From positions 5,766 through 69,765 of the forward strand of contig PBJO01000002.1 of NCBI GenBank assembly GCA_002720745.1: DNA of 64,000 bases, written 5' to 3'. Shown here piece by piece: positions 2,534 to 20,516 of the stretch. Position 1 is the first letter of the stretch, and each line of letters begins with the position of its first letter. The DNA comes from Balneola sp. GTDB lineage: Bacteria; Bacteroidota; Rhodothermia; Balneolales; Balneolaceae. Under the pieces are notes generated by a model. The model was not told where the DNA came from and ran no database searches. It saw only the letters and a list, made by a program, of their open reading frames with translations. The position numbers and the translations under genes are program-made.

Positions 2534-3355
2534 CTAAACCCAATTCCCAATAATCAACCGGCTCATCAGGCGGGAAAAATCATCTTTTCGCGCATTGGCT
2601 ACTTCTTTGACCTCATCATGATTTAAGGCTTTTCCGGTAATTCCAGCAGCAGCATTGGTGATAAGTGAAATACCCACAGTCGGTAAGCCTAAGAGGGTGG
2701 CTTCCATCAACTCGGCGGCAGTACTCATTCCAATGGCATCAGCACCCATTGTCCGGTATGCATGAATTTCGGCTTTAGTTTCGTAATTAGGCCCAAATAC
2801 ATAAAGATAATTGCCACGGTGTACTGGTAAGCCCAAATTCTTCGCCGTTTCAAAGGCCAGATCAGCATAGTTTTTCATATTCCAACTCCACTTAGATGAT
2901 TGCTGCATCATTCGGCGATGGGGCCGAATAATGTGATCAATCACCATGAGATCACCAACCGAATATTTTAAATTTATGCCTCCTGCAGCATTGGAAATCA
3001 ACAGTTTGTCCGCTTTAAGTGCATTGGTTAATCGGACTGGAATGAGCGTTTCTTCAAACGCATACCCCTCATAAAAATGAAAGCGTCCTGAAAAGGCCAT
3101 TACCTTAAGACCCTGGAGTTCACCAAAAATAAGTATTCCAGAATGACCTTCAATCGTTGATTGTGGAAAAGAGGGGATATCAGAATATGGTATGGTATGT
3201 GTGATGCTAAGCGCCTTGGTATACTCCCCGAGCCCTGAGCCTAGAATTATTCCAGCATGGATCTGCCTTGGGCAACCCAGTTCCTGCAAATGGCCAAGAA
3301 TAATTTCCAAATTGGATCCTAAAGCATTAAAGCTACTTCCTAACCAAGCACTCAT
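2534..3355 (-). CDS. punA: Purine nucleoside phosphorylase (trimeric, PNP-I type)
   Basis: The 273-residue product carries the phosphate-binding GSGLGEY near the N-terminus, NAAGGIN, GPNYETKAEI and GADAIGMSTAAELMEA, all diagnostic of the trimeric inosine/guanosine phosphorylase family. It splits purine nucleosides with phosphate into free base and ribose-1-phosphate in the cytoplasmic purine salvage pathway. Length matches the family. Its ATG overlaps the stop of the upstream MBL hydrolase gene by four bases, so the two are probably translationally coupled. It is the last gene of the rpe-phoH-MBL-punA run. Confidence 0.93.
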   Translation of the reverse strand: MSAWLGSSFNALGSNLEIILGHLQELGCPRQIHAGIILGSGLGEYTKALSITHTIPYSDIPSFPQSTIEGHSGILIFGELQGLKVMAFSGRFHFYEGYAFEETLIPVRLTNALKADKLLISNAAGGINLKYSVGDLMVIDHIIRPHRRMMQQSSKWSWNMKNYADLAFETAKNLGLPVHRGNYLYVFGPNYETKAEIHAYRTMGADAIGMSTAAELMEATLLGLPTVGISLITNAAAGITGKALNHDEVKEVANARKDDFSRLMSRLIIGNWV

Positions 3356-4149
3356 GACTGCCCTCCACGTACTGGCTCGGTCACATACCCCAGCTTGGGG
3401 TCATGACGTACGATTCGAAACATCGAGCACTCTTTGTCATGATAGGCCAAAATCGTAGATCCTTTCTCATAAGCCTTACGAGCTAAACGTACCCGCTGCA
3501 GTTTACTTTGCTCGGGATCATAATCATACTTAGCAGTAAATACCCGATTTACCTGCGTCCGGGTCGCCATCACATCGCCGGCCATCATCAAATTCAAATC
3601 CTCATCTTTGTACCAAAGAGCCTGATGAAATTGCGTATGCCCCCCAATGCGTTCAACTCGAAGTTCAGGGTATGGTTGGTCCTCTGCTTCCAAAAAATGT
3701 ATGTTTGCTCGAGCATTCAAAAAAGAGATAAATTCGGTTTTTTCGGCGTCATAAAACTCTTTTTTGGCTGTCACTCTGAGCCAGTCGTCCTTGCTTACCC
3801 ACAATTTAGCCTCGGGAAAGCTAAGCTCCCAAAACCCTGAATTCTGATGGGCTAAGCCACCCATATGATCATAATGTAGATGACTCATAAATATATCGGT
3901 CACTTCATGATTGGCAAATCCATGGCGCTCAAGATTCTCAAACAATCGCTCAACTCCAGTATCTTCCCCAAAAGATCCAATTCCCGTATCGATGAGCATT
4001 ACGCGATGTTCGTTAACCACTAAAAAAGGATTCAACGAAATTTTTAGAGCACCTTTTGCAGCATTACCACCCCTTGGGATAGAAAAAAACTTTTTATCCA
4101 TGCCTACTGAAAATGTTCCTTCATATAGAGGGGTACACCAACTTTTCAT
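3352..4149 (-). CDS. MBL-fold metallo-hydrolase
   Basis: The 265-residue protein has the metallo-beta-lactamase signature SHLHYDHMGG, giving zinc ligands H90, H92, D94 and H95, with a later His (GGHTQFHQA) and Asp (MMAGDVMA) in the expected order. No signal peptide is present, so it is probably cytoplasmic. Family members hydrolyse many ester-like bonds (lactones, glyoxalase II substrates, phosphodiesters); the sequence does not fix a substrate. It lies 12 bp after phoH and overlaps punA. A second MBL protein of related layout lies at 56243-57202. Confidence 0.88.
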   Translation of the reverse strand: MKSWCTPLYEGTFSVGMDKKFFSIPRGGNAAKGALKISLNPFLVVNEHRVMLIDTGIGSFGEDTGVERLFENLERHGFANHEVTDIFMSHLHYDHMGGLAHQNSGFWELSFPEAKLWVSKDDWLRVTAKKEFYDAEKTEFISFLNARANIHFLEAEDQPYPELRVERIGGHTQFHQALWYKDEDLNLMMAGDVMATRTQVNRVFTAKYDYDPEQSKLQRVRLARKAYEKGSTILAYHDKECSMFRIVRHDPKLGYVTEPVRGGQS

Positions 4150-4161
4150 GTGGGCTAGAGT

Positions 4162-5196
4162 CTAATCACTGTTTTTTTTTGAAGAGCTCAGTTTCATGCT
4201 AACTGGTCTAACTTCTTCAGGTATATACTGGTCATAGGCATTAATTATATCCTTTACCAATTTATGCCGAACAACGTCACCATCATCTAGATAAACAAAA
4301 TCGATGCCGTTTATACCCTGTAATATTCGTTGAATGGAGATCAATCCTGATTCATATTTTTGGGGTAAGTCAGTTTGGGTCACATCGCCTGTGATAATAG
4401 CTCTAGAATTGAATCCAATTCGCGTCAGAAACATCTTCATTTGAGTTTTGGTGGCATTTTGTGCCTCATCCAAAATAACAAAAGCATTATTTAAGGTTCG
4501 TCCGCGCATATAGGCGAGTGGAGCGATCTCGATAATGTTTTTTTGTAGGTTAAGATTCAGTTTTTCTTGATCCAACATATCCTCTAAAGCATCGTATAAT
4601 GGGCGCAAGTAAGGATCAATCTTCTCACGTAAATCACCCGGTAAAAACCCGAGAGTTTCGCCAGCTTCTACCGCGGGTCGGGCCAAAATAATCTTTTGAA
4701 CCTTGCGTTCTTTTAGTGCTTTTATAGCCAAAGCAACAGAGGTATAGGTCTTTCCGGTTCCGGCAGGACCTATAGCGAATACTATGTCATGTTTCGCTGT
4801 GGAAGTAAACATCTGAATTTGTCCAGAAGTCTTCGCTCGAACAGGTTCACCACGATGAGTGTACAAAATAACATCACCTTTTCCAGTATAAGGATCTATC
4901 GTTAATGCTTTTGGAGTTTTACCATTGAGACGGATTAAGGTTTTAACATCACCCTCAAGAACATCTTTACCTCTAATAGCTACCTCGACCATTCCTTTGA
5001 TAACAAGTCGAGCTTGGGCAATTTGCGTATCAGGGCCATTTAACTTGACTCGCTCCCCTCGAGCATTAAAACGTGTTTCTGGGAAGGCTTGATCGAGTAG
5101 GCGCAGATTTTCATCATTTAAACCGAAAAGTTGGACATGACTAACGCCCTCGGTCGAGATTTGGTCTTCGGAATATGAGCGGGTGTTTTCTGTCAT
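4162..5196 (-). CDS. phoH: PhoH family ATPase
   Basis: This 344-residue protein contains a PhoH-type NTPase domain with Walker A GPAGTGKT at residues 143-150 and Walker B VILDEAQN around 240-247, followed by LTRIGFNSRAIITGD, typical of the family. The N-terminal 110 residues form the KH-like region usual for PhoH/PhoL proteins. The family is linked to phosphate or stress responses and RNA metabolism; the exact biochemical role is not settled. The start overlaps the rpe stop by four bases (ATGA), which supports both the start choice and co-transcription with rpe. Confidence 0.93.
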   Translation of the reverse strand: MTENTRSYSEDQISTEGVSHVQLFGLNDENLRLLDQAFPETRFNARGERVKLNGPDTQIAQARLVIKGMVEVAIRGKDVLEGDVKTLIRLNGKTPKALTIDPYTGKGDVILYTHRGEPVRAKTSGQIQMFTSTAKHDIVFAIGPAGTGKTYTSVALAIKALKERKVQKIILARPAVEAGETLGFLPGDLREKIDPYLRPLYDALEDMLDQEKLNLNLQKNIIEIAPLAYMRGRTLNNAFVILDEAQNATKTQMKMFLTRIGFNSRAIITGDVTQTDLPQKYESGLISIQRILQGINGIDFVYLDDGDVVRHKLVKDIINAYDQYIPEEVRPVSMKLSSSKKNSD

Positions 5197-5876
5197 TTAC
5201 TCTTAAAATTCGAAAGGCGACTCTGTAGTTCTGTAACTTTATTGGTAATATTTTCTGCGGAAAAAACAGCGTTTCCTGCAACTAAAACATCGACTCCAGC
5301 CTGTGCAATATGAACGATATTCTTGGAATTTACGCCCCCATCAATTTCGATGAGGAAAGATAGTTCATGTTTTTCTCGCAGAGCAACCAGTTGTTCCACT
5401 TTCTTTAGGGTGGCTGGGATGAACTGTTGGCCGCCAAAACCAGGATTTACGCTCATCAAGAGTGCCAAATCAACCTCGGTTAACATGGGTTCGATAGCTG
5501 AAATAGGAGTGGATGGATTAATCACAACTCCAGTCATGGCTCCGTGGGAGCGGATGAGTTGAATGGTCCTGTGTAAATGAATACAGGCTTCTAGGTGTAC
5601 CGAGATAAGATCGGCTCCCGCGTCACAAAAACTTTCTATGTACTGATCTGGATTCTCAATCATCAAGTGAACATCTATGAATGCCTCATTCGAGATTTGT
5701 GAGACTGATGCTACAACATTGGGCCCAAAACTAATATTTGGAACGAAATGCCCATCCATTATATCACAGTGAATCCATTGGGCACCGCCATCGAGCACTG
5801 CTTGAACCTGAGTGCCAAGTTGAGCTTTGTCAGCGGCTAAAATAGAAGGAGCTAAAATCGGTAATTTAAAATTCAT
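5193..5876 (-). CDS. rpe: Ribulose-phosphate 3-epimerase
   Basis: The 227-residue TIM-barrel protein shows the family hallmarks APSILAAD, HCDIMDGHFVPN, VHLMIENP, VNPGFGGQQF and IEIDGGVN, including the conserved His/Asp pairs that bind the metal and act as general acid/base. It interconverts ribulose-5-phosphate and xylulose-5-phosphate in the pentose phosphate pathway. Length matches the family. It heads a compact minus-strand run into phoH (4 bp overlap). No Shine-Dalgarno precedes its ATG. Confidence 0.96.
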   Translation of the reverse strand: MNFKLPILAPSILAADKAQLGTQVQAVLDGGAQWIHCDIMDGHFVPNISFGPNVVASVSQISNEAFIDVHLMIENPDQYIESFCDAGADLISVHLEACIHLHRTIQLIRSHGAMTGVVINPSTPISAIEPMLTEVDLALLMSVNPGFGGQQFIPATLKKVEQLVALREKHELSFLIEIDGGVNSKNIVHIAQAGVDVLVAGNAVFSAENITNKVTELQSRLSNFKSK

Positions 5877-5980
5877 ATGGATGAAATATCACGAATTAAT
5901 GAAAAAAAATTATTTTATATGTGACTTAATCAAATAATATTGATTGAATTCGAATGTATGCTTCGTCAAAAGCGCTATCC

Positions 5981-6799
5981 CTAATTTTCATTGTTTTGCA
6001 GATTTTTTTCAACGTTGGTAGAATCAGTGAATACCGCACCACCTTCATTTTCCTCTACGGCATTAAAGCGTTCAGAAACTATCAAATTCAGTGATTCACC
6101 TTCAACAAGTTCGCTTACTTTTGGGCTGAAATCAAGCACGGTATTAGGTATTCGTCCCTCGGTGGGTTGAAATCGTATTTCCCCTACTCGAAGTCCTACT
6201 TCGCGAAGCTTTAGCTGAGCATTAGGCAATAAAAGACCTACTATTTCTGGTACAACCACCATTTTATCTCCTAGACCATCACTTACAATCAAATTTATAA
6301 CCGCCCCCTTATCCACCGCCTCGCCTGCTGTTAAGGATTGCTGTAGCACCACATTTTTAAATCGAGAGCTTTCATAGCTAATAGTGCCCACTACGAGTCC
6401 ATAGTTTTGAAGTTGCACCTGAGCATTTCGAAGGGATAAACTAGTAACATTAGGAACAATCACCGTTGGGCGAACAGCCGCATTTACCGTTAAATAAACC
6501 TTTCGGTTGGGTTTGACAATGGTATTTGCGCCGGGCGCCTGATCCAATACATAATTAGCAGGAAAGGCAGCATTTGATCGACGATCAGATACCTCATATC
6601 GTAGCCCTAGCAAGCGAATGGTCTCAGCTGCCTCCTTCAAAGAAACCCTAGTTAAATCGGGAACTGTTATTCCTTGGTTGTACAGGGTGTATTGAGGCAT
6701 TAGAACTTTATCAAAAACTAACAATCCTAGTGCACCTATGAGAATAACTCCGAGGCTAAGTAGATAAAAATATTTGTTGGTAAGCAAACTTCGAATCAT
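5981..6799 (-). CDS. Membrane-anchored PASTA-repeat protein
   Basis: The 272-residue protein has a short cytoplasmic N-terminus, one membrane helix (about residues 9-30) and three PASTA repeats (about 40-107, 113-180 and 185-247), each starting with a VP-x-hydrophobic motif followed by an A-x-x-x-L-x-x-x-G-L helix. PASTA domains bind peptidoglycan fragments or cell-wall precursors. In Firmicutes and Actinobacteria they usually form the outer half of a Ser/Thr kinase or a penicillin-binding protein, but no kinase or transpeptidase domain is fused or adjacent here. The C-terminal 25 residues are acidic and Asn-rich. It probably has its own promoter, given the 139 bp gap upstream. Confidence 0.88.
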   Translation of the reverse strand: MIRSLLTNKYFYLLSLGVILIGALGLLVFDKVLMPQYTLYNQGITVPDLTRVSLKEAAETIRLLGLRYEVSDRRSNAAFPANYVLDQAPGANTIVKPNRKVYLTVNAAVRPTVIVPNVTSLSLRNAQVQLQNYGLVVGTISYESSRFKNVVLQQSLTAGEAVDKGAVINLIVSDGLGDKMVVVPEIVGLLLPNAQLKLREVGLRVGEIRFQPTEGRIPNTVLDFSPKVSELVEGESLNLIVSERFNAVEENEGGAVFTDSTNVEKNLQNNEN

Positions 6800-6938: not shown

Positions 6939-8063
6939 TCAAAAATGCCAAACCAAAGCTACAGCCCGCTCTGAAAGCACCGATCCGGTCTGTATCTGCA
7001 ATCTAGACTCTCTGAGTTTCGCACTAAAATAAGCGTCAAAAGCCGAGATCATATGATTGACAAGTAGCAGTTTTAACACATTACCTGCATTCCGGTACTG
7101 GTTGTTGAATTCCTCCGCTCGATCGCGCCCCTCAATAAATCGTTCGCTAAGCATGGTAGCATCCCATGAATATTGATATACATGCGTAGCTCCCTGGGCC
7201 AAACGCTGCTCATGAAAGTCCTGCCAACCCGGCTGAAACTGATAATACTTACTCATGAGCTCATAATACTGCTGCGATCCAAAATTTTGGAGTACATGCG
7301 AAAACTCTGACCTAGTTACGCAGGAGGGGGGCTCAAAACTTCCACAGCCTTCCGGTATGTTGAAAATAAATCGCGTACGCACTTCCACGGCGCGTATGGC
7401 CTCCTCGGTAATTTTCCCCCAGTCCTGGGTCGTCTCCCCAAAAGCCGGAGTTAGTCCACCTACCATGGCATCTAGAGCCTCGTAGCCATTCACTAAATTA
7501 TTGGCTTTGGAATAATCAACCAACCATTGCGCGTAAGCCACAGGGCTCCAATAAGTGTTCCCATATTGCTCATATGCTGATTCATTATACTTGGCTAGCT
7601 GCTGTCTCTTACTATAAAATACCCAAGCTGCGATCTCTGTAGTCGCAAAAATTGCTGTACGTCCCCAATAACCCAGCAAAGCCTGCCCAGAACCCGGTGC
7701 AAGGGCCGAAGACCAAAAAGCTAACCCGGGTGAGGGATTACGACTGGGTTCAAGCAACCGGTTTTGCTGCCATATTGGTCTCGTAGGACTTGATAATTGA
7801 GCCCTTAAAAGCTTTTTGCCTTGTGGATTTACACCGGTATAGCGTACATTCTGCAGAGGCAGTAAAGAAGGTCGGACTCCCTCAACAACTCGGAATTCGT
7901 CTCCCGAGCTACTCACCCGAACATCTAATTGGGCTTCCACTCTGGTTGATGATACTGCAAACAGCCCAAAAAAGCCAGCCAGAATAAAACTTATGCCTAG
8001 TTGCTTGGCTAATCTTAGTTTGGAATCCGGCGGTGCCACGATATGTATCCACTTGCGGATCAC
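6939..8063 (-). CDS. Unrecognised exported protein coupled to the MA-peptidase/barrel gene
   Basis: I do not recognise this 374-residue protein. The first 44 residues have a positively charged start and a hydrophobic core ending in VEAQ, like a signal peptide. Residues about 110-160 hold a hydrophobic, Gly/Ala-rich stretch (LAFWSSALAPGSGQALLGYW, then IFATTEIAAWVF) that could be a membrane segment or a DUF5683-like region. The rest is rich in aromatic residues and Gln, with two cysteines close together (GCGSFEPPSC). The start is GTG, sitting in a GTGA overlap with the stop of the upstream gene, which argues for translational coupling and a shared envelope function. Confidence 0.8.
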   Translation of the reverse strand: MIRKWIHIVAPPDSKLRLAKQLGISFILAGFFGLFAVSSTRVEAQLDVRVSSSGDEFRVVEGVRPSLLPLQNVRYTGVNPQGKKLLRAQLSSPTRPIWQQNRLLEPSRNPSPGLAFWSSALAPGSGQALLGYWGRTAIFATTEIAAWVFYSKRQQLAKYNESAYEQYGNTYWSPVAYAQWLVDYSKANNLVNGYEALDAMVGGLTPAFGETTQDWGKITEEAIRAVEVRTRFIFNIPEGCGSFEPPSCVTRSEFSHVLQNFGSQQYYELMSKYYQFQPGWQDFHEQRLAQGATHVYQYSWDATMLSERFIEGRDRAEEFNNQYRNAGNVLKLLLVNHMISAFDAYFSAKLRESRLQIQTGSVLSERAVALVWHF

Positions 8064-11000
8064 AACAATTCAAAATCAAAGGTTAAGCCAAAGTGAAACA
8101 ATAGTTCACCCCCGTAATTGACTCGATTCCCTGTTGCAGGGGTCACAAAATCGTTCGGAAGTTCGACCGAGAATCGATCGAATCCATAGGCTCCACTAAC
8201 AAAGAACTTAATGGGGAATAGATAATAGGCAGATGTTGCAATTCGAAGCTCGCCGCCGATTCCACTTTTGAGGCGAGGCCCGCTATCAATTATGTCAGGT
8301 ACGTTGTTGGAGTCTCCTAAATACCAGCCGTTGCCCGTTTCAAAAAAGAGCCTAGCATACATTTTGTCAAAGGTATAGGGACCAATTTGACGGTTTATTT
8401 TTTTGCGGATGGGCACAAACCAGCTAAGAGAGGTCATGGCCGTCGTGCTTCCACCTATGGCAAAAAATGGATAGCTCCGTAGCCCTAAGAATCCACCCAC
8501 ATAGTCGGTATAAAAGGAATCCTTGGGGTTGTTGAAATAACTAAATCCACGAACTCTGGCCTGAAAAGCCTGCTGTCCGAAGGTGCGAAATCCATAACGA
8601 AGGTGTAGTTCGGTAGAGTGGTTACGCGAATTTTTAAAGATGGGGACCAGTGAACCCTCTTTTATTTCGTACTCTTCCAAGAGCTTTGAGGGTTGATACT
8701 GATAGCGTAGATACCCTTTGAAGCCCAGTGGAGCAATATCGGAATCGGTACTGTAGCTGTAATAATTAAAGCTATAAGCAGCTGATAGGGTTGTCCCTTT
8801 GAAGTATTCGGAAGATGATCCAGTTATGAAGGCTTTTAGTTCCCTAGAATAAAAGTTATCGGTACTCACGCGATAAGGAGAATAGCCTACTCCAAGTTCA
8901 AGAAGACTATAACGGGATAATTTTGACCTAAGGTATACATCAGCCTGCCAAATTTCATAGCCAATATCGACTCGAGCGGTATCGGGTAGGCAGGAGGTGC
9001 AGGGGTATTCGGTAATGGAAAGCCCGTCGTCTACATTGCGGTGAAGGTTAAATATTTCGATAGATACAGTAGGGGACCAACTACGCTGAATGAAAGGGAG
9101 TCCACGATATTCTGCCTGGAAAAAGATGTCTCGATCTAGTTCAATAATACGATTCGGCTGAAAAAATTCACCAATGGTGCTAGCACTTTTAGAGCCTAAA
9201 CCAACCATAATTCCACCAAATATCGATAGGCGATCGATAACATCACGAGAAGCCATATACACCCCTGGTTTCATATCACGCCACAAATTTTGACCTAAAT
9301 CACCCAATTGACCTGCTTTTAGAAGCTGTCCGTTACGGCCATTGAGTTGAGTGTAATTGTCGAGGCGAATAAGAGGGAAGAAAGAGGTTTGAGTATAGGT
9401 GTCGGTGTAGCGGCGTAGAGACCGTTCATCGGGTTGCCCTATAGTAGGTAGATCAAATGAAAAAGAACCCGTGTCGACGTAGGCCCACGCTACTTCTGGG
9501 ATAGTAGTAAGGTCCGAATCATCAAAGTAGTTCAGTGCTGCAATGGTAGACAGGCTGCCTTGAGTATCTGGGACCCTTGCTGGTTGAATAAGCTGAGTAT
9601 TGGGTTCTTGGCTAGTTTCATTATACCCAAACCAATTAAAGCCCAACTCATTTTCTGAGATCGAAACAGCGCGAATGGGACGAGACCGTAGCGTATATCC
9701 GTTGGCTATGTATTCGGAATAATAGAGTCGGTCATTGTACTCAACCGGCATAAATGCACCTCCAATTACATCGGTGAGCTGTTCCATACGATCTGGAATA
9801 GGAAAACCTTTCGAATTGAGAACTACCCTATAAATGTTAAACCGACCATTTGGAGCGGCGCTGAAATACAAGTATGAACCAGAGGCATCTACATAGGGAT
9901 CTCGCAGATCAAAAGAAGCGTCGGTTAATGCGTAAAATGCATCTTCCTCAGGATCAAAACTAAAGAGTTGCCGTTCACCTAAATAAGCGTAAGCACCATA
10001 TACTCTTTGACCATTGGGATGCCAAACAGGGCTAAAGATGGTTTGTCCATCTTCAAAGGAGGTCCATTTTTCCCACTTATCCAGTATGATTTCAGGGCTA
10101 TTTGATTCGACTGCTTGGGCGACTTGTTCATTCCAATAAGCTGAATCAGGTAAAGATATCCAAACCAGATTTTGAGTTCCTTTAGATTGTTGCACTGCAA
10201 GCAATCCATGACCTTGTGGGTGCCATGCTGGTGATTCTGCTCGGGCAGACTGGCTTAAGCGAATGTCTGTTTTGCTGGTAATATCGTGGATGAAAAGGTC
10301 TCGATAATCCTCGCCATACCTGTTGTACTTGTTTACAGCGTAAACGAGTTGTTTATCAGATGGGCTCCAATCAAATGACGTATTTATATAGTTTACCTGG
10401 GGTTCTAATTCGTGCATGTGGGCATGACCAGTAATCGCTGGTCGAAAGCTTGGCTCATTCATGTTATCAACAATCTGCCTCGCCGCACCCAGACCTGAAT
10501 TAGTACCCAAGTTTAAAGCATCTTGTTCCTCACCCAACGCATCTAGTTTACGGATATAGAGCGACATTCGTGAAGTTGCTCGTTCGCGATTAGAAACATA
10601 GGCAATCGTACCCGATTCAGGGTGGATACGTGGGAAAAAATTAAAAAATCCACCGCTTTCAACCGGCCAAACCTCTGCGCTATCCGCGGCCCATGGTGAT
10701 TTGTTAACTTGGGATTCTACCACCGAATACTCTTCTTTCAAACGGCTAATCCAATCCTCAAAAACCTGTTCCCCCGGAATGCCGGTGGCTGTCCCGATGG
10801 CTTCTGCCACATCGAACACCTGATCTTGACCCAAGGCCAGACTTATGTCTTTGAGAACAACCTCTCCGAAGCGTTCGGCCATGTACCGAGTAAAGGCAAA
10901 ACCCTGATTGTAAACAGTTTCTCGTTCAATGGACGTCTTGGAAGTAAAAGTACCCATTTCCGGTAGATTAAGATAGCTGTCTGAAAGTACTCGGTTACGT

Positions 11001-11671
11001 AAAACCATATCTCGATGAGCATCCCATTTATCATAGCTTAATTCCTTGCGTTGATACTGTGCAGTTCCTTCAGCCAGCCAGGCGGGTATGTTGAGCGAGG
11101 CAAAAGGCAAGGAGGCAATCCCATTAGGAAATCCATAAAGCACATCGGGTCGGCGTACTTTTTCGTATGATAACCATTGTAGATAGGCCGCAGGTGTACG
11201 CCGTTCTCGCTTAAGGCCAACCTGTATCTGAATTATATGGGTAAATTCGTGAGTGATCACATTACGCATCCAGTTGTGCGTACCACGTAGGGGAGCATCC
11301 AAGGCAGGAATCCAAATATCGATTTTGTTGTCAAAAAAGTAGGCGGCCCCATTGGAATAGTCTTCTCTGTCCTTGAGTACAATACTGACTTTTTCATCAG
11401 GCTCGTGCTCATACAACTCGGTGATGGGTCCATAAATCTCTTCAGCAATTCGGGACACCACCTGTGCACTGCGATCGTTACCCTCCTGGAAATGCACCGT
11501 AAAATGCTCACTTTCCATGGTAAACCAGTCCAAATGATTGTACGAGTAATCGTAGTACATAGGATTGGTCTGAGCGAACACCGTCGAATTACCGAAGTAA
11601 GAACTGCCCAGCAGGCTGTTCCCGAGGAGAGCGAGAAATAAGCTGGTGATATGGAGAAATGATTTGTGCAC
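8060..11671 (-). CDS. Peptidase MA / TolB-like propeller / Omp85-like barrel protein
   Basis: This 1203-residue protein begins with a signal peptide (to about residue 34, VFAQ). Residues about 45-320 form a peptidase-MA (gluzincin) domain with H141-E-F-T-H145 and a downstream glutamate E201 (WLAEGTAQY). Residues about 330-680 contain repeated TolB/WD40-like blades (SPAWHPQGHG, SPVWHPNGQR, DPYVDASGSY). The C-terminal ~400 residues are amphipathic beta strands resembling a surface-antigen (Omp85) barrel, with a GLRSYPF loop motif and a barrel-like FDFELL end. It is thus probably an outer-membrane protein with periplasmic catalytic and propeller parts. The start is GTG. It lies 16 bp after the M6-like gene in the porU-porV run. 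Its substrate is unknown. Confidence 0.85.
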   Translation of the reverse strand: MHKSFLHITSLFLALLGNSLLGSSYFGNSTVFAQTNPMYYDYSYNHLDWFTMESEHFTVHFQEGNDRSAQVVSRIAEEIYGPITELYEHEPDEKVSIVLKDREDYSNGAAYFFDNKIDIWIPALDAPLRGTHNWMRNVITHEFTHIIQIQVGLKRERRTPAAYLQWLSYEKVRRPDVLYGFPNGIASLPFASLNIPAWLAEGTAQYQRKELSYDKWDAHRDMVLRNRVLSDSYLNLPEMGTFTSKTSIERETVYNQGFAFTRYMAERFGEVVLKDISLALGQDQVFDVAEAIGTATGIPGEQVFEDWISRLKEEYSVVESQVNKSPWAADSAEVWPVESGGFFNFFPRIHPESGTIAYVSNRERATSRMSLYIRKLDALGEEQDALNLGTNSGLGAARQIVDNMNEPSFRPAITGHAHMHELEPQVNYINTSFDWSPSDKQLVYAVNKYNRYGEDYRDLFIHDITSKTDIRLSQSARAESPAWHPQGHGLLAVQQSKGTQNLVWISLPDSAYWNEQVAQAVESNSPEIILDKWEKWTSFEDGQTIFSPVWHPNGQRVYGAYAYLGERQLFSFDPEEDAFYALTDASFDLRDPYVDASGSYLYFSAAPNGRFNIYRVVLNSKGFPIPDRMEQLTDVIGGAFMPVEYNDRLYYSEYIANGYTLRSRPIRAVSISENELGFNWFGYNETSQEPNTQLIQPARVPDTQGSLSTIAALNYFDDSDLTTIPEVAWAYVDTGSFSFDLPTIGQPDERSLRRYTDTYTQTSFFPLIRLDNYTQLNGRNGQLLKAGQLGDLGQNLWRDMKPGVYMASRDVIDRLSIFGGIMVGLGSKSASTIGEFFQPNRIIELDRDIFFQAEYRGLPFIQRSWSPTVSIEIFNLHRNVDDGLSITEYPCTSCLPDTARVDIGYEIWQADVYLRSKLSRYSLLELGVGYSPYRVSTDNFYSRELKAFITGSSSEYFKGTTLSAAYSFNYYSYSTDSDIAPLGFKGYLRYQYQPSKLLEEYEIKEGSLVPIFKNSRNHSTELHLRYGFRTFGQQAFQARVRGFSYFNNPKDSFYTDYVGGFLGLRSYPFFAIGGSTTAMTSLSWFVPIRKKINRQIGPYTFDKMYARLFFETGNGWYLGDSNNVPDIIDSGPRLKSGIGGELRIATSAYYLFPIKFFVSGAYGFDRFSVELPNDFVTPATGNRVNYGGELLFHFGLTFDFELL

Positions 11672-11687
11672 GGATTAATGGAACACC

Positions 11688-14600
11688 TTATTTGGCGACG
11701 GCTATTTTGACTAGTTTACTACTTGTTTTACCAGCAACAGCTACCTTAACTAATGCAATATACGCACCCGAGGGCCATTGAGAGGTATCAATTTCAATTT
11801 CTTCAGGACTAACTCCTTTACTTTGAACCTGCAGCTCATAAATTATTTGACCACCAAGGTCTATAATCTGAATCTGAACCTGCCCAGCCCCGGAGGTTTG
11901 AAAGCGCAACATCGTCCGATCTCTGGCTGGGTTAGGCCAGTTATAGGTTTCCGAGCCTATCAACACCGATTGTTCATCTCCGCCTCTAGGCGAGTTCAAT
12001 TCTTCCTCGGTTTGATGCGCCCGATTCCAACCCCAAGGCCCCATTCGAGAAGGCCAGTCGGCACTGCCCATGTTCGGAAATTCCCAAATGGATAATTCTC
12101 CCGAAGGCGCTATGGCCGTTACAAAAGATCCGACTATCCCGTGTTCGTGTATCTGCGAACCTTGATCCACATCCAAACTACCTGAAACATCCGAGTTAAA
12201 ACCACCGGTACCTATCAGTAAAGGAAATCTCTGCAAAGGTTTAGCTTCAAGGGTATAGCCATAGAGCATGGTGGCATAAGGATTTTGCCCAACCATAAGC
12301 AGATTTTGCTCCCCATCCCCGTCAAGATCGGCCAACAGAGGACTGCCTGCCCAGCGTACCGAGTCGGGAGCAGGAAGTGGAAAGTAATCCAACACAGCTC
12401 CATTTAGATAGTATCCTTCGAGGGTATTATGGCTGTTATTAACTCGAAAAACCTGTCCTTTTTTGGAGATTGCTGGCCATAAAGCGGCTACTTCTCTAGA
12501 CTGGGTACTATATAATAAGGTATAAACATTAGCTGCATTGGGGTCAAATAACCCCACTTCGCTTTCACTAATTCGGAGAAGACGTACTGATTCACCTTGG
12601 GCTAAGGGAATCCATTGGACAGCTTCTGCAGTGCCTAATAATCCACTTTGTTCCAGAGCCAAAATTTCATCTACGCTCCATCCATCAACTTTAATCTCAT
12701 CGTTATTCCACCGCCCTTGAAACCATCCGGCTAGCATATCCTCAGAATTTTTAAGCTCAATCAAGGCTGTTTCTGTTAGCCAATTGCTGCCTGTAATCTG
12801 TCCTTCCATATCCATTTGTATGCCTAATAATTCAAGTAAAATAGTCCGCTCTGCGCCACCGGTACTGCTCAGGTAGCCTAGCTGTTCCCCAAAGCCAATA
12901 CCACTTAATTCCGAGTTTATGGTTTGTTCCCATCGTTGCACCAAGCTATCATCTCCAGGGGTATAGTTCCAGGATCGAATACGCAATTGTGAATCATTAT
13001 CCCTACGCTCGCCGGTAATTATCCGGTCTTCTAAAACCGGCTGCACCGATCCTTCCATGTCCGCAAGCTGTATCCAATCTTCAGTGGTTATATCCTGCTT
13101 GGTCTTTAAATCGTTCAAGCTTAGCAGCTGAAGTATTTTCTCTGCTTGCACTACTACTAACGTGTCAGAAGGAGTATCTACATACCCGCCTAATGCATTA
13201 ACTCCTTGTGCACCAACAATGACTCGTCCAACCGAAAGAGGATAAGAAGGATAATACCCATCATCCGAAGTTAAACCATTCGGAAGAAAATCTTGAATGT
13301 TCACTGCTAGGCGGGCTTCGTTGTCTTCAGGAGCGGCATAACGAATAGAAAACTGAGCAGTCGCCCCGGTGGCTTGTATATCATAGAGCTCAAAAAATTG
13401 CGGGGTACCTACATTGCTTGAATTATTTGGATATGTTTCTGGGCCAAATTCGTTGTTAGGATTCAGGTTAATACTGCCATTTTCGGTTACGACCCGATAG
13501 TTATTGCCTTCCCACCAAAAGTCATAGGCATAGCCAAAGCTAGGTGAATTATCCAATAACCCAGCATCCAAACCAATATCCTGAGCCCCATCAGCCTCTT
13601 CCAGATCTACCCCCCGATAATACGGATCTTCATTTACTCCACGATCGATCCCTTGAGCTTGTGCGTTAAAAGCGCGTTGAATAACCCCATCATCAATGTG
13701 CCAAATAAGTAGTCCGCCATTGAGTTCACGATCGTCTTCGGTGCCTTCTTTTTCATCAGGACCAAGATCCAGCCCGCCTGGTAAACTCCAATCAAAATTA
13801 CTTACATTTAGTAGTGTTCCAGCAGATAATAAGGTATCAAACCCCGCATATTGATAAATAAAATCAGTATCGTAGTTGGTAAATTGCTGGTATACTCGTC
13901 CTCCATCGGGTTGACGGATGGTAAGCTCGACTCCGCCTGCGTTTAGGTCCCGTTGGCGGTACTCAATCATGAAATATTCGCTACTTGAAATATCCCATCG
14001 GTAGAGTTGTGGGTGATTGGCATTCCTATCCATAGAAGCAGGGGATAAAGTGAAGGGGCCAATGCTACCCTTGCTTTTCAATGCACCTGCCGATTCGGTG
14101 ATGTTCAACGGTTCTATCCAACCTAGTGTAGCCTTTTCCCAAGCCGAGGGCTCTGGAGGTATGAGACCGTTATAGGAAAAAAAGCCAGCACCGTCCATAA
14201 GTCCAAATCGTCCAATAGCAGGAGAACCATCCGATGTATTAAATAAATCAGGCAGACCTAGATGGCTTCCAATAGAGGCGCAAAGCAGACCATTAATCGA
14301 TAGCGGAAAGACAACTTCATTTCCTCCAATATCCTCTCCCCGGCGGCTTTGAGTCCGCGGAATAATCATCGAGTTATTTACGTGAAAGGCTCCATTATTC
14401 ATAGAAAATCCTTCAAAAGTGGGTTCATTCAATAAGCTAGCGAGTTGATCTTGCTTCAAATAAATGGAGGGTAAATCATAGGGAGTAATGTCTAGACTGG
14501 TACCGGTTAACTCAATATCCCGACCAACTCCTGCGTGGAAAATAACGAAAGCAGTCTTTGCAGGATCCAATCCGGTGGCATCGAACTGCCCGAATTCATC

Positions 14601-15083
14601 TACTTTGGCCCACACATGCTCCAGCAAAACCGCTATCTTTTCCAAGGTGAATTCTTCGCCAATGGGTGAATAAAACGACATAGGATTATCAAGTTGTACC
14701 ACCTCAGGAAGTACCTGATAGTCTAACTCTAACTGCCCATCGGATGCTTTGAGGTAATAATTACGGGCAAATTCAAGATGAGCCTCAAAATAGGATTGAT
14801 CATGGGGAAGTGGATCAATGCGCGGATCCTCTTGACGGGCTAGGTAATCCAAACCATCGAAGCCGTAAGGGCCAAATACCCCTGTTCCGGAGGTTAGCTC
14901 AGAAGTATCGGACAAAAATTCTACTCGCACTGCAATCAAATCAATTTGTCCGACAGCGGGTCGAATGACCTGCGCAGTGAGCCCTGAAGTACCCAGGATT
15001 TCTAGGCATAGCAAGAAACAGAGTATTACAATGCTGGAACAACCAGACAAACTACTTGAATAAGGCCAGCGATTTGGCAGCAT
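11688..15083 (-). CDS. M6-like T9SS cargo protein with degraded catalytic motif
   Basis: The 1131-residue protein has a signal peptide (about 1-38, LTAQ), an M6 (immune-inhibitor-A-like) peptidase fold over about residues 45-480, a region with a calcium-binding-like DLDGDGEQN, and a C-terminal type A T9SS sorting domain starting at NWPNPA and ending in a Lys-containing strand. It should therefore be exported through T9SS and released or anchored at the cell surface. In active M6 peptidases HEFGH precedes xLGLPDLY; here the aligned residues are A269-S-I-G-S273 before HLGLPDLF, so both zinc histidines and the catalytic Glu are missing, while GLMDG and the surrounding fold motifs remain. It is probably a non-catalytic surface protein. 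It starts 5 bp from porV. Confidence 0.9.
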   Translation of the reverse strand: MLPNRWPYSSSLSGCSSIVILCFLLCLEILGTSGLTAQVIRPAVGQIDLIAVRVEFLSDTSELTSGTGVFGPYGFDGLDYLARQEDPRIDPLPHDQSYFEAHLEFARNYYLKASDGQLELDYQVLPEVVQLDNPMSFYSPIGEEFTLEKIAVLLEHVWAKVDEFGQFDATGLDPAKTAFVIFHAGVGRDIELTGTSLDITPYDLPSIYLKQDQLASLLNEPTFEGFSMNNGAFHVNNSMIIPRTQSRRGEDIGGNEVVFPLSINGLLCASIGSHLGLPDLFNTSDGSPAIGRFGLMDGAGFFSYNGLIPPEPSAWEKATLGWIEPLNITESAGALKSKGSIGPFTLSPASMDRNANHPQLYRWDISSSEYFMIEYRQRDLNAGGVELTIRQPDGGRVYQQFTNYDTDFIYQYAGFDTLLSAGTLLNVSNFDWSLPGGLDLGPDEKEGTEDDRELNGGLLIWHIDDGVIQRAFNAQAQGIDRGVNEDPYYRGVDLEEADGAQDIGLDAGLLDNSPSFGYAYDFWWEGNNYRVVTENGSINLNPNNEFGPETYPNNSSNVGTPQFFELYDIQATGATAQFSIRYAAPEDNEARLAVNIQDFLPNGLTSDDGYYPSYPLSVGRVIVGAQGVNALGGYVDTPSDTLVVVQAEKILQLLSLNDLKTKQDITTEDWIQLADMEGSVQPVLEDRIITGERRDNDSQLRIRSWNYTPGDDSLVQRWEQTINSELSGIGFGEQLGYLSSTGGAERTILLELLGIQMDMEGQITGSNWLTETALIELKNSEDMLAGWFQGRWNNDEIKVDGWSVDEILALEQSGLLGTAEAVQWIPLAQGESVRLLRISESEVGLFDPNAANVYTLLYSTQSREVAALWPAISKKGQVFRVNNSHNTLEGYYLNGAVLDYFPLPAPDSVRWAGSPLLADLDGDGEQNLLMVGQNPYATMLYGYTLEAKPLQRFPLLIGTGGFNSDVSGSLDVDQGSQIHEHGIVGSFVTAIAPSGELSIWEFPNMGSADWPSRMGPWGWNRAHQTEEELNSPRGGDEQSVLIGSETYNWPNPARDRTMLRFQTSGAGQVQIQIIDLGGQIIYELQVQSKGVSPEEIEIDTSQWPSGAYIALVKVAVAGKTSSKLVKIAVAK

Positions 15084-15088
15084 GGCGA

Positions 15089-16255
15089 TTAAAAGTTCAG
15101 GAGCACACTAAAGCGGAGCGTATTCGCCAAGGGGTGATCCGATTCAAGGGTCTTGATGTAACTAAAGTCGATACCAAAGGCGTTGTAGCGGAGTCCAGCA
15201 CCAAAGGTGATGTATTTACGGTCGCCGTTGTTGGGATCCTCGTAATAGAATCCACTGCGCAGAGCAAAAAGATCGTTGTACCAATATTCCAAACCAGCGC
15301 CAAACATTAACTGCTGAAATAAACTCACATCTACATATTCCTGACCGTCGAATCGTTGAAAGGTGTCCCATGAGCTAAATAAAGCTTCAATGGCACCAGC
15401 AGCAACATATGAGGTATCGGATACCCCAGCTTGGGTGGAGATAACTTCTTTTTTACGGGCCATAATTTTAGAGATATCGGTTGCAAGGGTAATGCTGTTG
15501 TATCCTTCTGGGTCAAGATCGAATTCGAGAGCAAAACCAGCGCGCAACGTTGTTGGTAACGGATCTTTTTGGGCATTGTCGGTGTATTGCATGCCAGGCC
15601 CTATGTTGGAGAGGTTAAAACCGGCTGAGAAACGAGCTTTGTTTTCACCCAAGATAAGGGGATTGGTTTTGTACAATAGCGCCAAATCAACGCCAATACT
15701 GTTTCCTGGGTTTACCTTCTGCTGACTTACCGTAGTTCCGGAGGCCAGAGAAGAGTAGATGAGCCGGAGACTGGTACCCAAGGCGAGATTTTTGTTCACC
15801 TCAAAACCGTAGGAAAGCCCAAGAGCCAATTCATAGGAGTTGAATTTAGAGATGATATCGGGACTGTCTTCGTTAGTTTGAATCTGTTCTCCAAGGTTTA
15901 GATAGGTCAGATGAGCTCCGATGGTTCCAATTCCTTCCACATTATATTTACCTACCAAATAATCATAGAATAAATCATCCACATTAAAGTTAGCAAGCCA
16001 GTTTGAGTGGGTTATACTCGCTTGGTTGCCTTGCTGAAAAGCCAAGCCAGCAGGGTTCCAAAATATAGCCGATGCGTTATCGGCGATTGCCACTCCGGTA
16101 TTTCCCATGGCAGCGCCACGAGAATCGGGTTCAATTTGTAAAAAAGGGACAGCGGTGATAGCCACCTGAGCTTGAGTAGTATAAGATAAGCCCACTAGCA
16201 AAAATAAGCTCATGGAAAACTCTAAAAAACGTGTTGAAAACAATGATTTTTTCAT
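15089..16255 (-). CDS. porV: T9SS outer-membrane protein PorV
   Basis: The protein of about 388 residues belongs to the PorV/PorQ (UPF0164-like) family of 14-stranded outer-membrane barrels. It starts with a clean signal peptide (MKKSLFSTRF to TTQAQ), then AVPFLQIEPDSRGAAMGNTG, AIFWNPAGLA and a repeated beta-strand pattern ending in a terminal Phe (SVLLNF). PorV carries T9SS cargo from the translocon to the PorU sortase. The open frame extends upstream to a TTG at 16348, but the ATG at 16255 directly precedes the signal peptide and is preferred. Position right behind porU fits the conserved porU-porV pairing. Confidence 0.9.
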   Translation of the reverse strand: MKKSLFSTRFLEFSMSLFLLVGLSYTTQAQVAITAVPFLQIEPDSRGAAMGNTGVAIADNASAIFWNPAGLAFQQGNQASITHSNWLANFNVDDLFYDYLVGKYNVEGIGTIGAHLTYLNLGEQIQTNEDSPDIISKFNSYELALGLSYGFEVNKNLALGTSLRLIYSSLASGTTVSQQKVNPGNSIGVDLALLYKTNPLILGENKARFSAGFNLSNIGPGMQYTDNAQKDPLPTTLRAGFALEFDLDPEGYNSITLATDISKIMARKKEVISTQAGVSDTSYVAAGAIEALFSSWDTFQRFDGQEYVDVSLFQQLMFGAGLEYWYNDLFALRSGFYYEDPNNGDRKYITFGAGLRYNAFGIDFSYIKTLESDHPLANTLRFSVLLNF

Positions 16256-16350
16256 AGTGTATATAATTCTCACAAAATTCGATTTGGGAATATAATGAGT
16301 CTGGTTCATTAAATATGATTTTTTACGTGTAGAATACTTGTTTTGCAATT

Positions 16351-16389
16351 AGCGATTCGACAAGTAGCGATTCGGTATATTTCGATTCA
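16351..16389. repeat. Three 15-bp-spaced direct repeats between porU and porV
   Basis: AGCGATTCG occurs at 16351-16359 and again at 16366-16374, and a related TTCGATTCA at 16381-16389, giving an exact 15 bp period. The array sits between the porU stop and the porV start. It could be a small tandem-repeat expansion or a set of protein-binding iterons. Confidence 0.6.
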
Positions 16390-16400
16390 GTAAATTGCAT

Positions 16401-19400
16401 TTAGCGAATAACCACTAATTTTTCAATTTGTTCGATTGTTTTTCGGCCTTCGGGAGTTTCTGTTGATACCCTAAGCACATAAACATAAGTACCGTTACCC
16501 AGGCGATCAAAATCCCGGTCACGGCCATCCCATGGGATACTGGCATATGAACTGTTTCCTATTATTGTTTCTTGTATTTGTTGTACAGGGGCCCCGGCGA
16601 GAGTATAGATTCGGATACTCACGTCTAAAGGGTTTCCTTGCTGATTGTGTTCGAAAACGAACTGTGTAAAATTATTCATTGGATTTGGGTAGTTGTATAA
16701 ATCACGGATCACCAAATCCTCATCGGATTGTACCTCAAAAGCAATACTCTGTTCCGATGGATTATTATGTACATCCCATGCTCGAACTTTAAGGATGTAG
16801 GTACCTTCAGGAATATCCTCTAATGGATATTCTATGCGTCCCTTTGTAAAGTCATTAAGTTCTCCTTCATAAAAGTCATTTAAAACGAACTCACGTGGGG
16901 GTTGGGTATCGAGTGTGGCAATAATTTCGTGGCCAATACCGGTACCCGTGGTGTTTATCCCCGAACTGTCGCTTAATTCTACAAATACCGTAGGGTTAGA
17001 GTTCATCAAACTGCCGTTAAAAAATGAAGGGTCGTTCAAATAGAGATCCATTTGCGGGCCCTGCCCGTCATTAACGGCATCGGGATTCACTCCAGAAAAA
17101 CGAAGCTTGGTATAAGAACCCCCGGCCGTCTCCTCCGAACTCTTAGCAAACACAAGCATACGAGAAGACTCAGGTGAAAAACTCATATCTTTAGGTAAAA
17201 TGAATTGGGTAGAAAAACGCCCATTCTGTACTTCGGCTTTCCCCCGAAATAATACATCACTTTCGACTTCATAGGTACATTCAAGCTCGGTTCCGCGATT
17301 CAAATAGCACCCATAACTAGATATCCATTCTCTATCCTGAGGAATGCTCACTCGGCGTTTAGCATCGAACAAAGTGAAAACCGCCTCGCCATTAAAACTG
17401 CTATGGCGCTGCCCATTAGGTAAGAGAATCTCACCCTCCAACTCAACCGTATCCAGCGCACGTAAGCTCAGTGGATCGCTTAGGGTATCTAATTTTACCT
17501 GGTTGATGTGTGTGAAGCTCCCTTTTCGGTCAGGCAGAGCTAATCGCAAGGCCGGATCTCCCAGCAGGATGAACTTTCGCGCATTAAGTTCATTGCCAAT
17601 AGAAGTGTTTTTGGTGCGTAGAAAAATATCACCCAGCCGGAGTGGACGCCCATCGGTATCTCGCTCTAGCATTTTTTGAGAGAGGGCGATATTTAATCCG
17701 AAATTCAAGGCGGAGGTGCTCGAAGAGGTATACACTACCCGCGTGGTTGTAAAGCTCGCAATGGCTCCACCGTTATCGGCCAATACCAATTTTTCAGCTC
17801 CTGATTGGGCATCAATATCGTCGTAGCGACCAAATTGACAGGTAGCCGTAACCACCAGGGCTAACTTATTTCGGTTATTAAGTTGGGGGATATAATCTGA
17901 GAGAAAAAGCTCTTCATCAGTCAGAGTTTGGGCGTTACCATGTCCAGAATAATTGAACACCAACATGCCCCGGTTAAAGGTATCGATAAGATCCTGAGTG
18001 GCCGCGGGGAGTTGACGCCCGGCCGCAGTAATTTCTTCAGGATAGGCAAATAGATAAATTTTCTTCAGGCGAGCACCGGGTTCGTCCAGATTCATACGGA
18101 TAGCGGTTCCATCGGCATTGAGTACATGTAAATCTCGATTTCGGTTGGGCTCTGGGAAATCATCGTCTCCGGCAAAAGTGAAGAGGTTTTGCCATTCTCC
18201 GGCATTGGCAGGGTCTTCGTAACGGTAGATTTTATCCAAGGCAATGCGAGCTTCGCTACGAGTTTGTGCCGAAATACGTCCTACTCCTAGATCGACCCGA
18301 TCCGAAGAGCCAAAAAGCCCCTCTCCATCATCCATATAAGCAAAATAATCGTCGGTACCATAACTATTGGTTCGATGGATAGATTCACTGCTTTGAAAGG
18401 TAATTACGTAGTTGGTGAAACCATTTTTAATATTTTTGGTGTCGAAAGTAGCGTCGCCAAATAGCAAAAGATGTTTTGGTAGTTGCTGACCTTGTGCTAA
18501 GGCACGATTCCAAAGATATTTAAGGAAATCACGAATGGTGGACGGATCGGCTACCCCACCCGAGAATTCATTAAAAATTTGCTCTTGAGTCACGACCAAT
18601 ACATCTAGACCTTGATCGGAGCGGTATTGAGCCAGCTCCTGCGCATAAGGTAAAAAGATAGGGGCGGTAACGACTATATAATTTGGGTATCCACTGAGAC
18701 CGCGTAGGTTTTGATTTTCTACTTTTCGCCCCATGAACGGCCTGTAATACCCGTTTTGTATCCAATAGCGATCCGAGGTTTCGCTGCCATGTTGAAAGGT
18801 ATGCGTCGCCGTGACACCGGTTCCAAAGCTATTGGTAATTGGGACCGTAACGGGTTCAACCGGGTTAGAGACCTCCAAGACTTGCGGTTGAGCTGTAAAC
18901 CCAGAGACGGTAAACGAGCGCACTGTCTGCCCATCGGCGTCAGTGGGCGCGAACATGGATATTTCACCGTTATCGGCATATTGTGCCCGAGTACTAGTCA
19001 CGCGCACATAATCCACAAAGGCCTCGGTCCCTGCATCCCCATTACTCATGGTCACACTTAGCTCAATCAACGCATCACCAGAGTTAATAAAGTCTGAACT
19101 ATTCAGGCTGAAAGGGATTTGACTAAAACTATAGGGCCTAGCCGATTCAAATTCATAAGAGTTATATCCCGAGGTAAGTGAATTTACAGAAAAGGTATTA
19201 ATCACTTCTTCGTTGGCTTTGAGTTGAAATATAGGCCTACTTTCTGAGCGCACATAGATTCGGCCAGAGAGCAGCAAAGGTTCCTCTGGATTCACCTGAA
19301 CCAAAGTATCTTTGTAAATGGATACATCTTTGCCCTGAGCGGTGGACGGGATTCGTTGACCTAAAAAATAACGACCTGTTTTTTGTCGAGTCTCAGATTT

Positions 19401-20516
19401 ATTAAGCTCCTGCTCCATCCAGTTGAAATCCTCGAACTGAACTTGGTTGGCGCAGGGCGCACAAAAATCGGTCTCACTTTTCATGCGAAGTCCTGGCTGT
19501 TCACCCACCGTCAAAAAAACAAAGGTAGAATCTGAATAGGGATGAATGCTATGCGAAAACTCTCCTAGATTTCGAATCTCTTTATGAGGTGAAAATCCAT
19601 AAAACAATAGCACGTCACTGGCATTAAACTGCCCATCGGCCTCTCCTTGAATTAAGATTGGAATCTGAGCAAAATCCGCCCTTACTGTATTGTTACGCTC
19701 CGGCAACACCTTCCCATCGGTACCCCACAGCTGTAGATTTCTGGGATCTATGCTATCAAGATCTAATCCTAATTCGTCCAGATAACTAACATCCAATCCA
19801 TGAATACCCTCACGAGAAATTGGGATTTTATACCACTGCCCATTGGCTAGTGGTGTGCTATCTTGCTGCTTTAACCTTACACCCATATGCGCATTATTCG
19901 TGGTGTTGCCTGGCCAAGATTGTGGCCGCCGATCCAATTGCGGGCCATCCCACTGGTCTATATCAGGCGACATAGCCGTTTTACCCACCCGTATGTGCAA
20001 CTCCCGAGTAATTTTGGTCGAGGCACCACCCCAGCTTGATGTTTTCGCGGCATTTCGCTCATTCGGTGAAAACCGTGCCATATGAACCACCACCGAGGCA
20101 ATATCTTGTCCACGAAATAATCCAACAAAACCTGTTTCTATCACCGGTACTAGGGTACTCTTCAATGCCCATGCTTTTGCTTGAATCGAATCAATAGGGG
20201 TGGGGATGCTACGCACTTGCTGCGATAAAATTTGAATGTCGGCACTCCCCTGACGAACAGCTACTGGTAGCTCAAAAGGAGGAAGAATCTGAAGTTGAGG
20301 ATTTGAAAGTTTATACTCGATATGCGTGGCAGTTTCAGCCACTTTGAGCAGTTGTACTCCTGTATTTTGTGCCCAAACTCCATCTCCATCCGCCACTAGA
20401 ACTCCCAAGCTAATGGCAAAACAAAGCCATCTTAGGGCTATTTGTCGCACAGAAAATAACCAAGCAGCTCGAATCTGATTCGCAGACTTTGTGTCTTCTC
20501 GATGTTGTTTAGGCAT
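16401..20516 (-). CDS. porU: T9SS sortase PorU (C25 gingipain-like cysteine peptidase)
   Basis: This 1371-residue protein has a long N-terminus with a signal peptide ending near residue 50 (GVWAQ). The C25 peptidase domain (about 600-1000) keeps the catalytic dyad: H859 in NYSGHGNAQT and C893 in VTATCQFGRYDD. The C-terminal ~85 residues form a sorting-type domain (NYPNPMNNFTQF, then a Gly-Asn-Gly-Thr-Tyr-Val-Tyr motif). PorU is the surface sortase that removes the sorting domain from T9SS cargo and joins cargo to lipopolysaccharide in family members studied. The M6-like protein encoded two genes downstream is a plausible client. It starts the minus-strand run 20.5 to about 2.5 kb. Confidence 0.94.
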   Translation of the reverse strand: MPKQHREDTKSANQIRAAWLFSVRQIALRWLCFAISLGVLVADGDGVWAQNTGVQLLKVAETATHIEYKLSNPQLQILPPFELPVAVRQGSADIQILSQQVRSIPTPIDSIQAKAWALKSTLVPVIETGFVGLFRGQDIASVVVHMARFSPNERNAAKTSSWGGASTKITRELHIRVGKTAMSPDIDQWDGPQLDRRPQSWPGNTTNNAHMGVRLKQQDSTPLANGQWYKIPISREGIHGLDVSYLDELGLDLDSIDPRNLQLWGTDGKVLPERNNTVRADFAQIPILIQGEADGQFNASDVLLFYGFSPHKEIRNLGEFSHSIHPYSDSTFVFLTVGEQPGLRMKSETDFCAPCANQVQFEDFNWMEQELNKSETRQKTGRYFLGQRIPSTAQGKDVSIYKDTLVQVNPEEPLLLSGRIYVRSESRPIFQLKANEEVINTFSVNSLTSGYNSYEFESARPYSFSQIPFSLNSSDFINSGDALIELSVTMSNGDAGTEAFVDYVRVTSTRAQYADNGEISMFAPTDADGQTVRSFTVSGFTAQPQVLEVSNPVEPVTVPITNSFGTGVTATHTFQHGSETSDRYWIQNGYYRPFMGRKVENQNLRGLSGYPNYIVVTAPIFLPYAQELAQYRSDQGLDVLVVTQEQIFNEFSGGVADPSTIRDFLKYLWNRALAQGQQLPKHLLLFGDATFDTKNIKNGFTNYVITFQSSESIHRTNSYGTDDYFAYMDDGEGLFGSSDRVDLGVGRISAQTRSEARIALDKIYRYEDPANAGEWQNLFTFAGDDDFPEPNRNRDLHVLNADGTAIRMNLDEPGARLKKIYLFAYPEEITAAGRQLPAATQDLIDTFNRGMLVFNYSGHGNAQTLTDEELFLSDYIPQLNNRNKLALVVTATCQFGRYDDIDAQSGAEKLVLADNGGAIASFTTTRVVYTSSSTSALNFGLNIALSQKMLERDTDGRPLRLGDIFLRTKNTSIGNELNARKFILLGDPALRLALPDRKGSFTHINQVKLDTLSDPLSLRALDTVELEGEILLPNGQRHSSFNGEAVFTLFDAKRRVSIPQDREWISSYGCYLNRGTELECTYEVESDVLFRGKAEVQNGRFSTQFILPKDMSFSPESSRMLVFAKSSEETAGGSYTKLRFSGVNPDAVNDGQGPQMDLYLNDPSFFNGSLMNSNPTVFVELSDSSGINTTGTGIGHEIIATLDTQPPREFVLNDFYEGELNDFTKGRIEYPLEDIPEGTYILKVRAWDVHNNPSEQSIAFEVQSDEDLVIRDLYNYPNPMNNFTQFVFEHNQQGNPLDVSIRIYTLAGAPVQQIQETIIGNSSYASIPWDGRDRDFDRLGNGTYVYVLRVSTETPEGRKTIEQIEKLVVIR

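Follow-up and report, generated by a model that had tools for sequence, protein, structure and literature searches.

What are three large exported-protein genes doing beside porU and porV, the genes for the sortase and the shuttle of the type IX secretion system (T9SS)? The five genes form a tight series on the minus strand, at 6939-20516 among the open reading frames of a 64,000-nucleotide stretch of a Balneola sp. genome (contig PBJO01000002.1), hereafter the window. The series begins with porU (16401..20516), encoding a C25-type sortase (NF033707, 1014 bits; PF01364, 4.3e-93), and continues with porV (15089..16348), encoding the shuttle barrel (NF033710, 290 bits at a cut-off of 250; PF19572, 1.6e-35). 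The third gene (11688..15083) encodes a protein, here M6i, with a dead M6-fold domain, a propeller-like region and a type A sorting tail, and is assigned by NF052323. The fourth (8060..11671) encodes PPB, which has a signal peptide and in which family profiles and an HExxH motif point to an MA-clan metallopeptidase, a PD40 propeller and a putative Omp85-like barrel. The fifth (6939..8063) encodes UEP, an exported protein of 374 residues that is DUF5683-like by remote similarity; its gene and the end of the PPB gene share 4 bases. Open reading frames and profile matches thus bear out the five tightly spaced minus-strand genes of the original prediction, and its gaps of 5, 16 and -4 bases (porV-M6i, M6i-PPB and PPB-UEP, respectively) are correct on the ORF coordinates. 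Its figure of 145 bases between porU and porV holds if the in-frame ATG at 16255, probably the start of the signal peptide, is taken as the PorV start, but falls to 52 with the TTG at 16348. The run is preceded by a 423-base gap upstream of PorU and followed by 139 bases downstream of UEP. A promoter and terminator scan of the run gave no excess, with counts below shuffle level, which is compatible with one transcript or several. Further downstream, PASTA, RPE, PhoH, MBL-fold and purine phosphorylase genes occupy 2534-6799 of the window, also on the minus strand.

M6i is a full-length member of NF052323 (936.8 bits, cut-off 600), whose record name is ‘T9SS-dependent M6-like inactivated metalloprotease’; this name, on which our comparison is based, gives dependence on T9SS only and neither partner nor function. 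The type A sorting domain at the C-terminus is matched by TIGR04183 (34.4 bits, 1.6e-08) and PF18962 (38.7 bits). None of 120 M6i sequences has HExxH at the aligned site, and a single unrelated HEMAH lies elsewhere in one of them (locus L097). Positions 729-931 of the family profile match the BamB/YfgL chain 4imm in a PDB profile search (1.1e-5), and the tail matches chain 5m11, which we take to be PorZ, at an insignificant E of 0.061. PDB sequence searches with a single M6i or PPB sequence returned no matches. AlphaFold models of M6i and PPB built from four-sequence alignments reached a pLDDT of 28 and 24, respectively, and are not used as evidence. Named public contigs yielded just five M6i relatives: four belong to Balneola/Balneolaceae, and the fifth, a weak match (6e-4), to Clostridiales.

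PPB consists, within approximate limits, of a metallopeptidase domain at residues 35-330 (HEFTH at 141-145, EGTAQY at 201), a PD40 propeller at residues 330-750 and an Omp85-like barrel at residues 750-1203 (GGFLGLRSYP at 1059). The window protein alone gives weak Peptidase_MA_2 and PD40 matches; across the family these domains are found in 25 and 23 of 26 members, respectively. The HExxH motif is intact in all 107 full-length PPB sequences and the downstream glutamate, E201, is invariant in the 26-row alignment. By these two features PPB is a predicted gluzincin metallopeptidase of the MA clan, and we expect it to be active. The protease domain is also the best-conserved part of PPB, with a mean column identity of 63% (24 rows) compared to 48% for the barrel (26 rows). 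The Omp85 profile PF01103 matches 4 of 26 barrel segments, at best with 1.2e-5, and does not match the window protein. The barrel segments carry a GG..G.(R/K)(G/S)YP motif that presumably corresponds to the Omp85 RGF/Y motif. PDB profile searches with the barrel and protease profiles of PPB gave chance-level matches only.

The window UEP alone has no Pfam or NCBIfam match at 0.01. DUF5683 (PF18935) matches 24 of 26 members of the UEP family, the best at 2.6e-10, and reaches the window protein at 0.042 and 14.3 bits, which lies below the Pfam gathering cut-off of 26.7. UEP differs from DUF5683 by an extra conserved half (FSH..QQYYELIGKY.QF.PGW) beyond the matched part.

Is the neighbourhood a feature of this genome only, in which case the link to porUV would be accidental? 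NF052323 is present in 99 of the 116 genomes of the window's order, 97 of them over the cut-off. We compared 60 neighbourhoods of 9.8-20 kb from this order, picked to span most genera. Together with the window these give 61 loci, several of which stop at contig ends; PorV occurs in 61, PPB in 60, UEP in 53 and PorU in 43. Gaps lie within -300 to 400 bases for PorV-M6i in 60/61, for M6i-PPB in 60/60 (median -1) and for PPB-UEP in 52/53 (median -4). The downstream PASTA, RPE, PhoH, MBL and PNP genes are conserved across the order as well, and conservation at this level therefore does not by itself prove a functional link.

A further 60 neighbourhoods came from other orders: 20 belong to the same class, and the remaining 40 lie elsewhere in the phylum. 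These contain PorU in 56, PorV in 59, PPB in 50 and UEP in 49 loci; all five genes are present in 49, and in every one of these they are colinear. The adjacency of the three followers to porUV, which the original prediction treated as accidental should it occur in this genome only, thus extends far beyond it. PASTA, RPE, PhoH, PNP, thiolase, CGS and the two flank families o23 and o26 were each found in 0/60 of these loci; flank gene o24 was found in one and a metallo-beta-lactamase-fold relative in 15. Eight of the ten gene families flanking the run in the window are therefore missing outside the order. Since the five genes stay together despite this exchange of flanks, general synteny does not account for their order, and an accidental neighbourhood is ruled out. 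Some loci have inserted genes, for which one member of each of two groups was scanned: in 15 of the 20 same-class loci (L108, L109, L111-L123) an AhpC/TSA-thioredoxin-family membrane protein separates PPB from UEP, and in 6 of the 40 rest-of-phylum loci (L126, L128, L148, L149, L154 and L161) M6i is separated from PPB by a lipoprotein-like protein that is some 220 residues long and includes a FlgD-like segment.

Co-occurrence was followed in an even, phylum-wide sample of 394 genomes from 170 genera, in which M6i is present in 151 genomes and 86 genera. A 26-row PPB profile, built from M6i-linked loci, was searched over the same 394 genomes, and the matches fall into two sets, 151 genomes at an E of 1.4e-210 or stronger and 61 at 1.2e-49 or weaker. 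With the stronger set, both proteins are present in 151 genomes and neither in 243, and there is no genome with M6i only or PPB only. The 61 genomes of the weaker set, all without M6i, carry distant PPB-like proteins (E 1e-21 to 1e-49) that are possibly propeller-Omp85 or peptidase paralogues. UEP, at an E of 1e-32 or stronger, occurs in 150 of the 151 M6i genomes and in 5 genomes without M6i; at the looser threshold of 1e-8 its profile reaches 201 genomes, the extra ones presumably holding other DUF5683 proteins. The pairing of M6i with PPB is strict, that of UEP with the two is looser.

The pair is also kept where the genes are not adjacent. In 10 of the 60 outside-order loci PPB lies away from M6i but elsewhere in the genome (L104, L129, L130, L139, L140, L150, L152, L153, L158 and L162), although for L153 this may be due to a contig break or end. 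Displaced PPB and UEP lie together in three of the cases inspected (L175, L176 and L177) and apart in others. In three of the loci with displaced PPB (L150, L152 and L162) M6i is followed by a gene of 365-370 residues, glycosyltransferase-like as judged from its sequence. Joint absence was found in genus g7, in which seven genomes lack M6i: in all five whose locus was read, M6i and PPB are both absent beside an intact porV, two having the order thiolase-PorV-UEP-PASTA, with UEP retained (G055 and G066), and three having thiolase-PorV-PASTA, with UEP also gone (G064, G071 and G083). Another genome of this genus without M6i (G088) also has no good PorV match and no PorZ, and here loss and a missing contig are equally likely explanations. 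The distance correlations (partial r 0.34 for M6i-PPB, 0.51 for PorU-M6i, 0.38 for PorV-PPB and 0.35 for UEP-PPB) do not single out M6i-PPB.

Does the trio work with the sortase? PorU is present in 257 of the 394 genomes, 135 with M6i and 122 without it, and the trio is therefore dispensable for T9SS as such. Sixteen M6i genomes, all of the window's family, lack PorU at an E of 1e-60 (G022, G034, G044, G047, G058, G062, G065, G068, G069 and G073-G079), and these keep porV-M6i-PPB-UEP. PorZ was found in none of these 16 (searched as 2 + 14), compared to 53 of 55 PorU-bearing M6i genomes tested (37/38 + 16/17); the presence of PorZ tracks PorU, not M6i. SprA and PorV are each present in 16/16. 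PorU2, considered as the sortase of these genomes, had no match in any of the 16. They retain 5-32 sorting-tail matches per genome, compared to 32-48 in four PorU-bearing relatives, and their PorV-family paralogues are mostly gone (1-2 matches vs. 4-7). As far as gene content allows such a reading, 16 Balneolaceae genomes have a T9SS without any recognised sortase. Because all 16 genomes without PorU and PorZ keep the trio, M6i, PPB and UEP are independent of PorU and PorZ. One sorting-tail match (G000:C10:7637-7864) contains two in-frame stop codons and is possibly a decayed cargo gene.

We are highly confident that M6i, PPB and UEP beside porV form one functional module. M6i and PPB are probably an obligate PorV- and SprA-dependent pair, in which we infer an outer-membrane protease with a pseudoprotease subunit that is exported to the surface. 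The proposed locus would have two parts that share PorV. The first would be the known sortase branch, PorU acting with a PorZ that is encoded elsewhere, and the second would be M6i-PPB-UEP. SprA and PorV would export M6i by means of its C-terminal sorting tail, and on the surface M6i may serve as a non-catalytic binding subunit, with its dead M6 domain and propeller. PPB would reside in the outer membrane, its Omp85-type barrel carrying a TolB-like propeller and a zinc metallopeptidase that works. Together the two proteins may form one protease complex whose substrate would be either T9SS cargo or M6i itself, and UEP may assist as an envelope protein. A domain preceding an Omp85 barrel is normally periplasmic; for this reason the PPB active site is more likely to be periplasmic, where it would touch M6i in transit or through the barrel. 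For the conserved five-gene locus with its two parts and this mechanism, taken overall, we see slightly better than an even chance, while the specific outer-membrane protease mechanism for the three proteins is tentative and, in our judgement, has somewhat less than an even chance of being right.

Could PPB instead be a processing or release protease, with M6i and other T9SS cargo as its substrates, which in lineages without PorU replaces the tail removal by the sortase? The invariant HExxH motif and the high conservation of the protease domain would suit such a role, as would the retention of PPB where PorU was lost and 5-32 sorting-tail proteins remain. However, PPB is present in PorU-bearing genomes too, five genomes without both PorU and PPB still have 4-9 sorting-tail matches, and the expected place of a protease that precedes an Omp85 barrel is the periplasm rather than the surface. 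We regard this explanation as unlikely. A second alternative draws on the BAM complex of Bacteroidota, which combines an Omp85 barrel with a FadL-family barrel and an extracellular propeller, the FadL homologue being BamG and the propeller BamI (PMC12578637). By analogy, PPB, UEP and M6i could be an assembly or quality-control device for outer-membrane parts of T9SS, with PorV in the FadL role, and the Omp85-like barrel of PPB and the BamB-like propeller region of M6i fit this picture. The likeness is one of fold only, however, and five genomes without M6i and PPB retain porV and SprA, and so we consider a BAM-like device to be quite unlikely. Plain synteny, by which the genes stay together by descent and have no common function, could appeal to the PASTA-RPE-PhoH-MBL block that is likewise conserved in the window's order, but it is highly improbable given the replacement of the flanks outside the order, and it is contradicted for M6i and PPB, which co-occur when unlinked and are jointly absent. 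That M6i replaces PorZ in the attachment complex, as its propeller, sorting tail and the match to 5m11 might suggest, is scarcely credible and is contradicted by PorZ following PorU.

Against this background, the module of M6i, PPB and UEP can be compared with published systems, of which the nearest kinds, in the literature searched, are the T9SS attachment complex and the WD40-Omp85 subfamily. The PorU-PorV-PorQ-PorZ attachment complex of Porphyromonas gingivalis, as described in PMC8545088, shares the porU-porV pair and includes a propeller protein that bears a sorting tail; M6i, PPB and UEP lie outside that complex as it is described there, and genomes devoid of PorU and PorZ still keep them. 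The WD40-Omp85 subfamily has a propeller before the Omp85 barrel, an arrangement that PPB would share, and PPB, compared with it by description, would add an N-terminal MA-clan metallopeptidase; the ‘Metallo’ Omp85 group of the same paper has PF00149, a domain other than that of PPB (PMC4104836). In C. hutchinsonii, a gene annotated as a zinc protease follows porV (PMC8564354). We found no description of the trio in the open-licence literature searched. The original prediction that the followers are not standard T9SS genes therefore stands for the trio in the T9SS literature searched, but M6i is already named T9SS-dependent by NCBI. Its suggestion that the trio may extend the pathway agrees with the linkage of the locus, but the trio is not tied to PorU, as the 16 genomes show, and an extension in function is conjectural.

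Most work on T9SS comes from a small number of species, belonging in the literature consulted to Porphyromonas, Flavobacterium and Cytophaga. It is possible, although we think it rather doubtful, that M6i-PPB-UEP represents an ancient second, sortase-independent type IX arm, in which a T9SS-exported pseudoprotease on the surface and a membrane-embedded live metalloprotease would be one machine across the outer membrane. Such an arm would be present in about half of the sampled genera and absent in many other T9SS lineages, and in some Balneolaceae it would have outlived the sortase. If the pair is a real arm of T9SS, then in 86 of the 170 sampled genera the system has parts that the accepted list does not contain. 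Lineages with the translocon and the shuttle and without the sortase would then be natural experiments that separate export from attachment, and the strict pairing of M6i and PPB offers a direct two-gene test.
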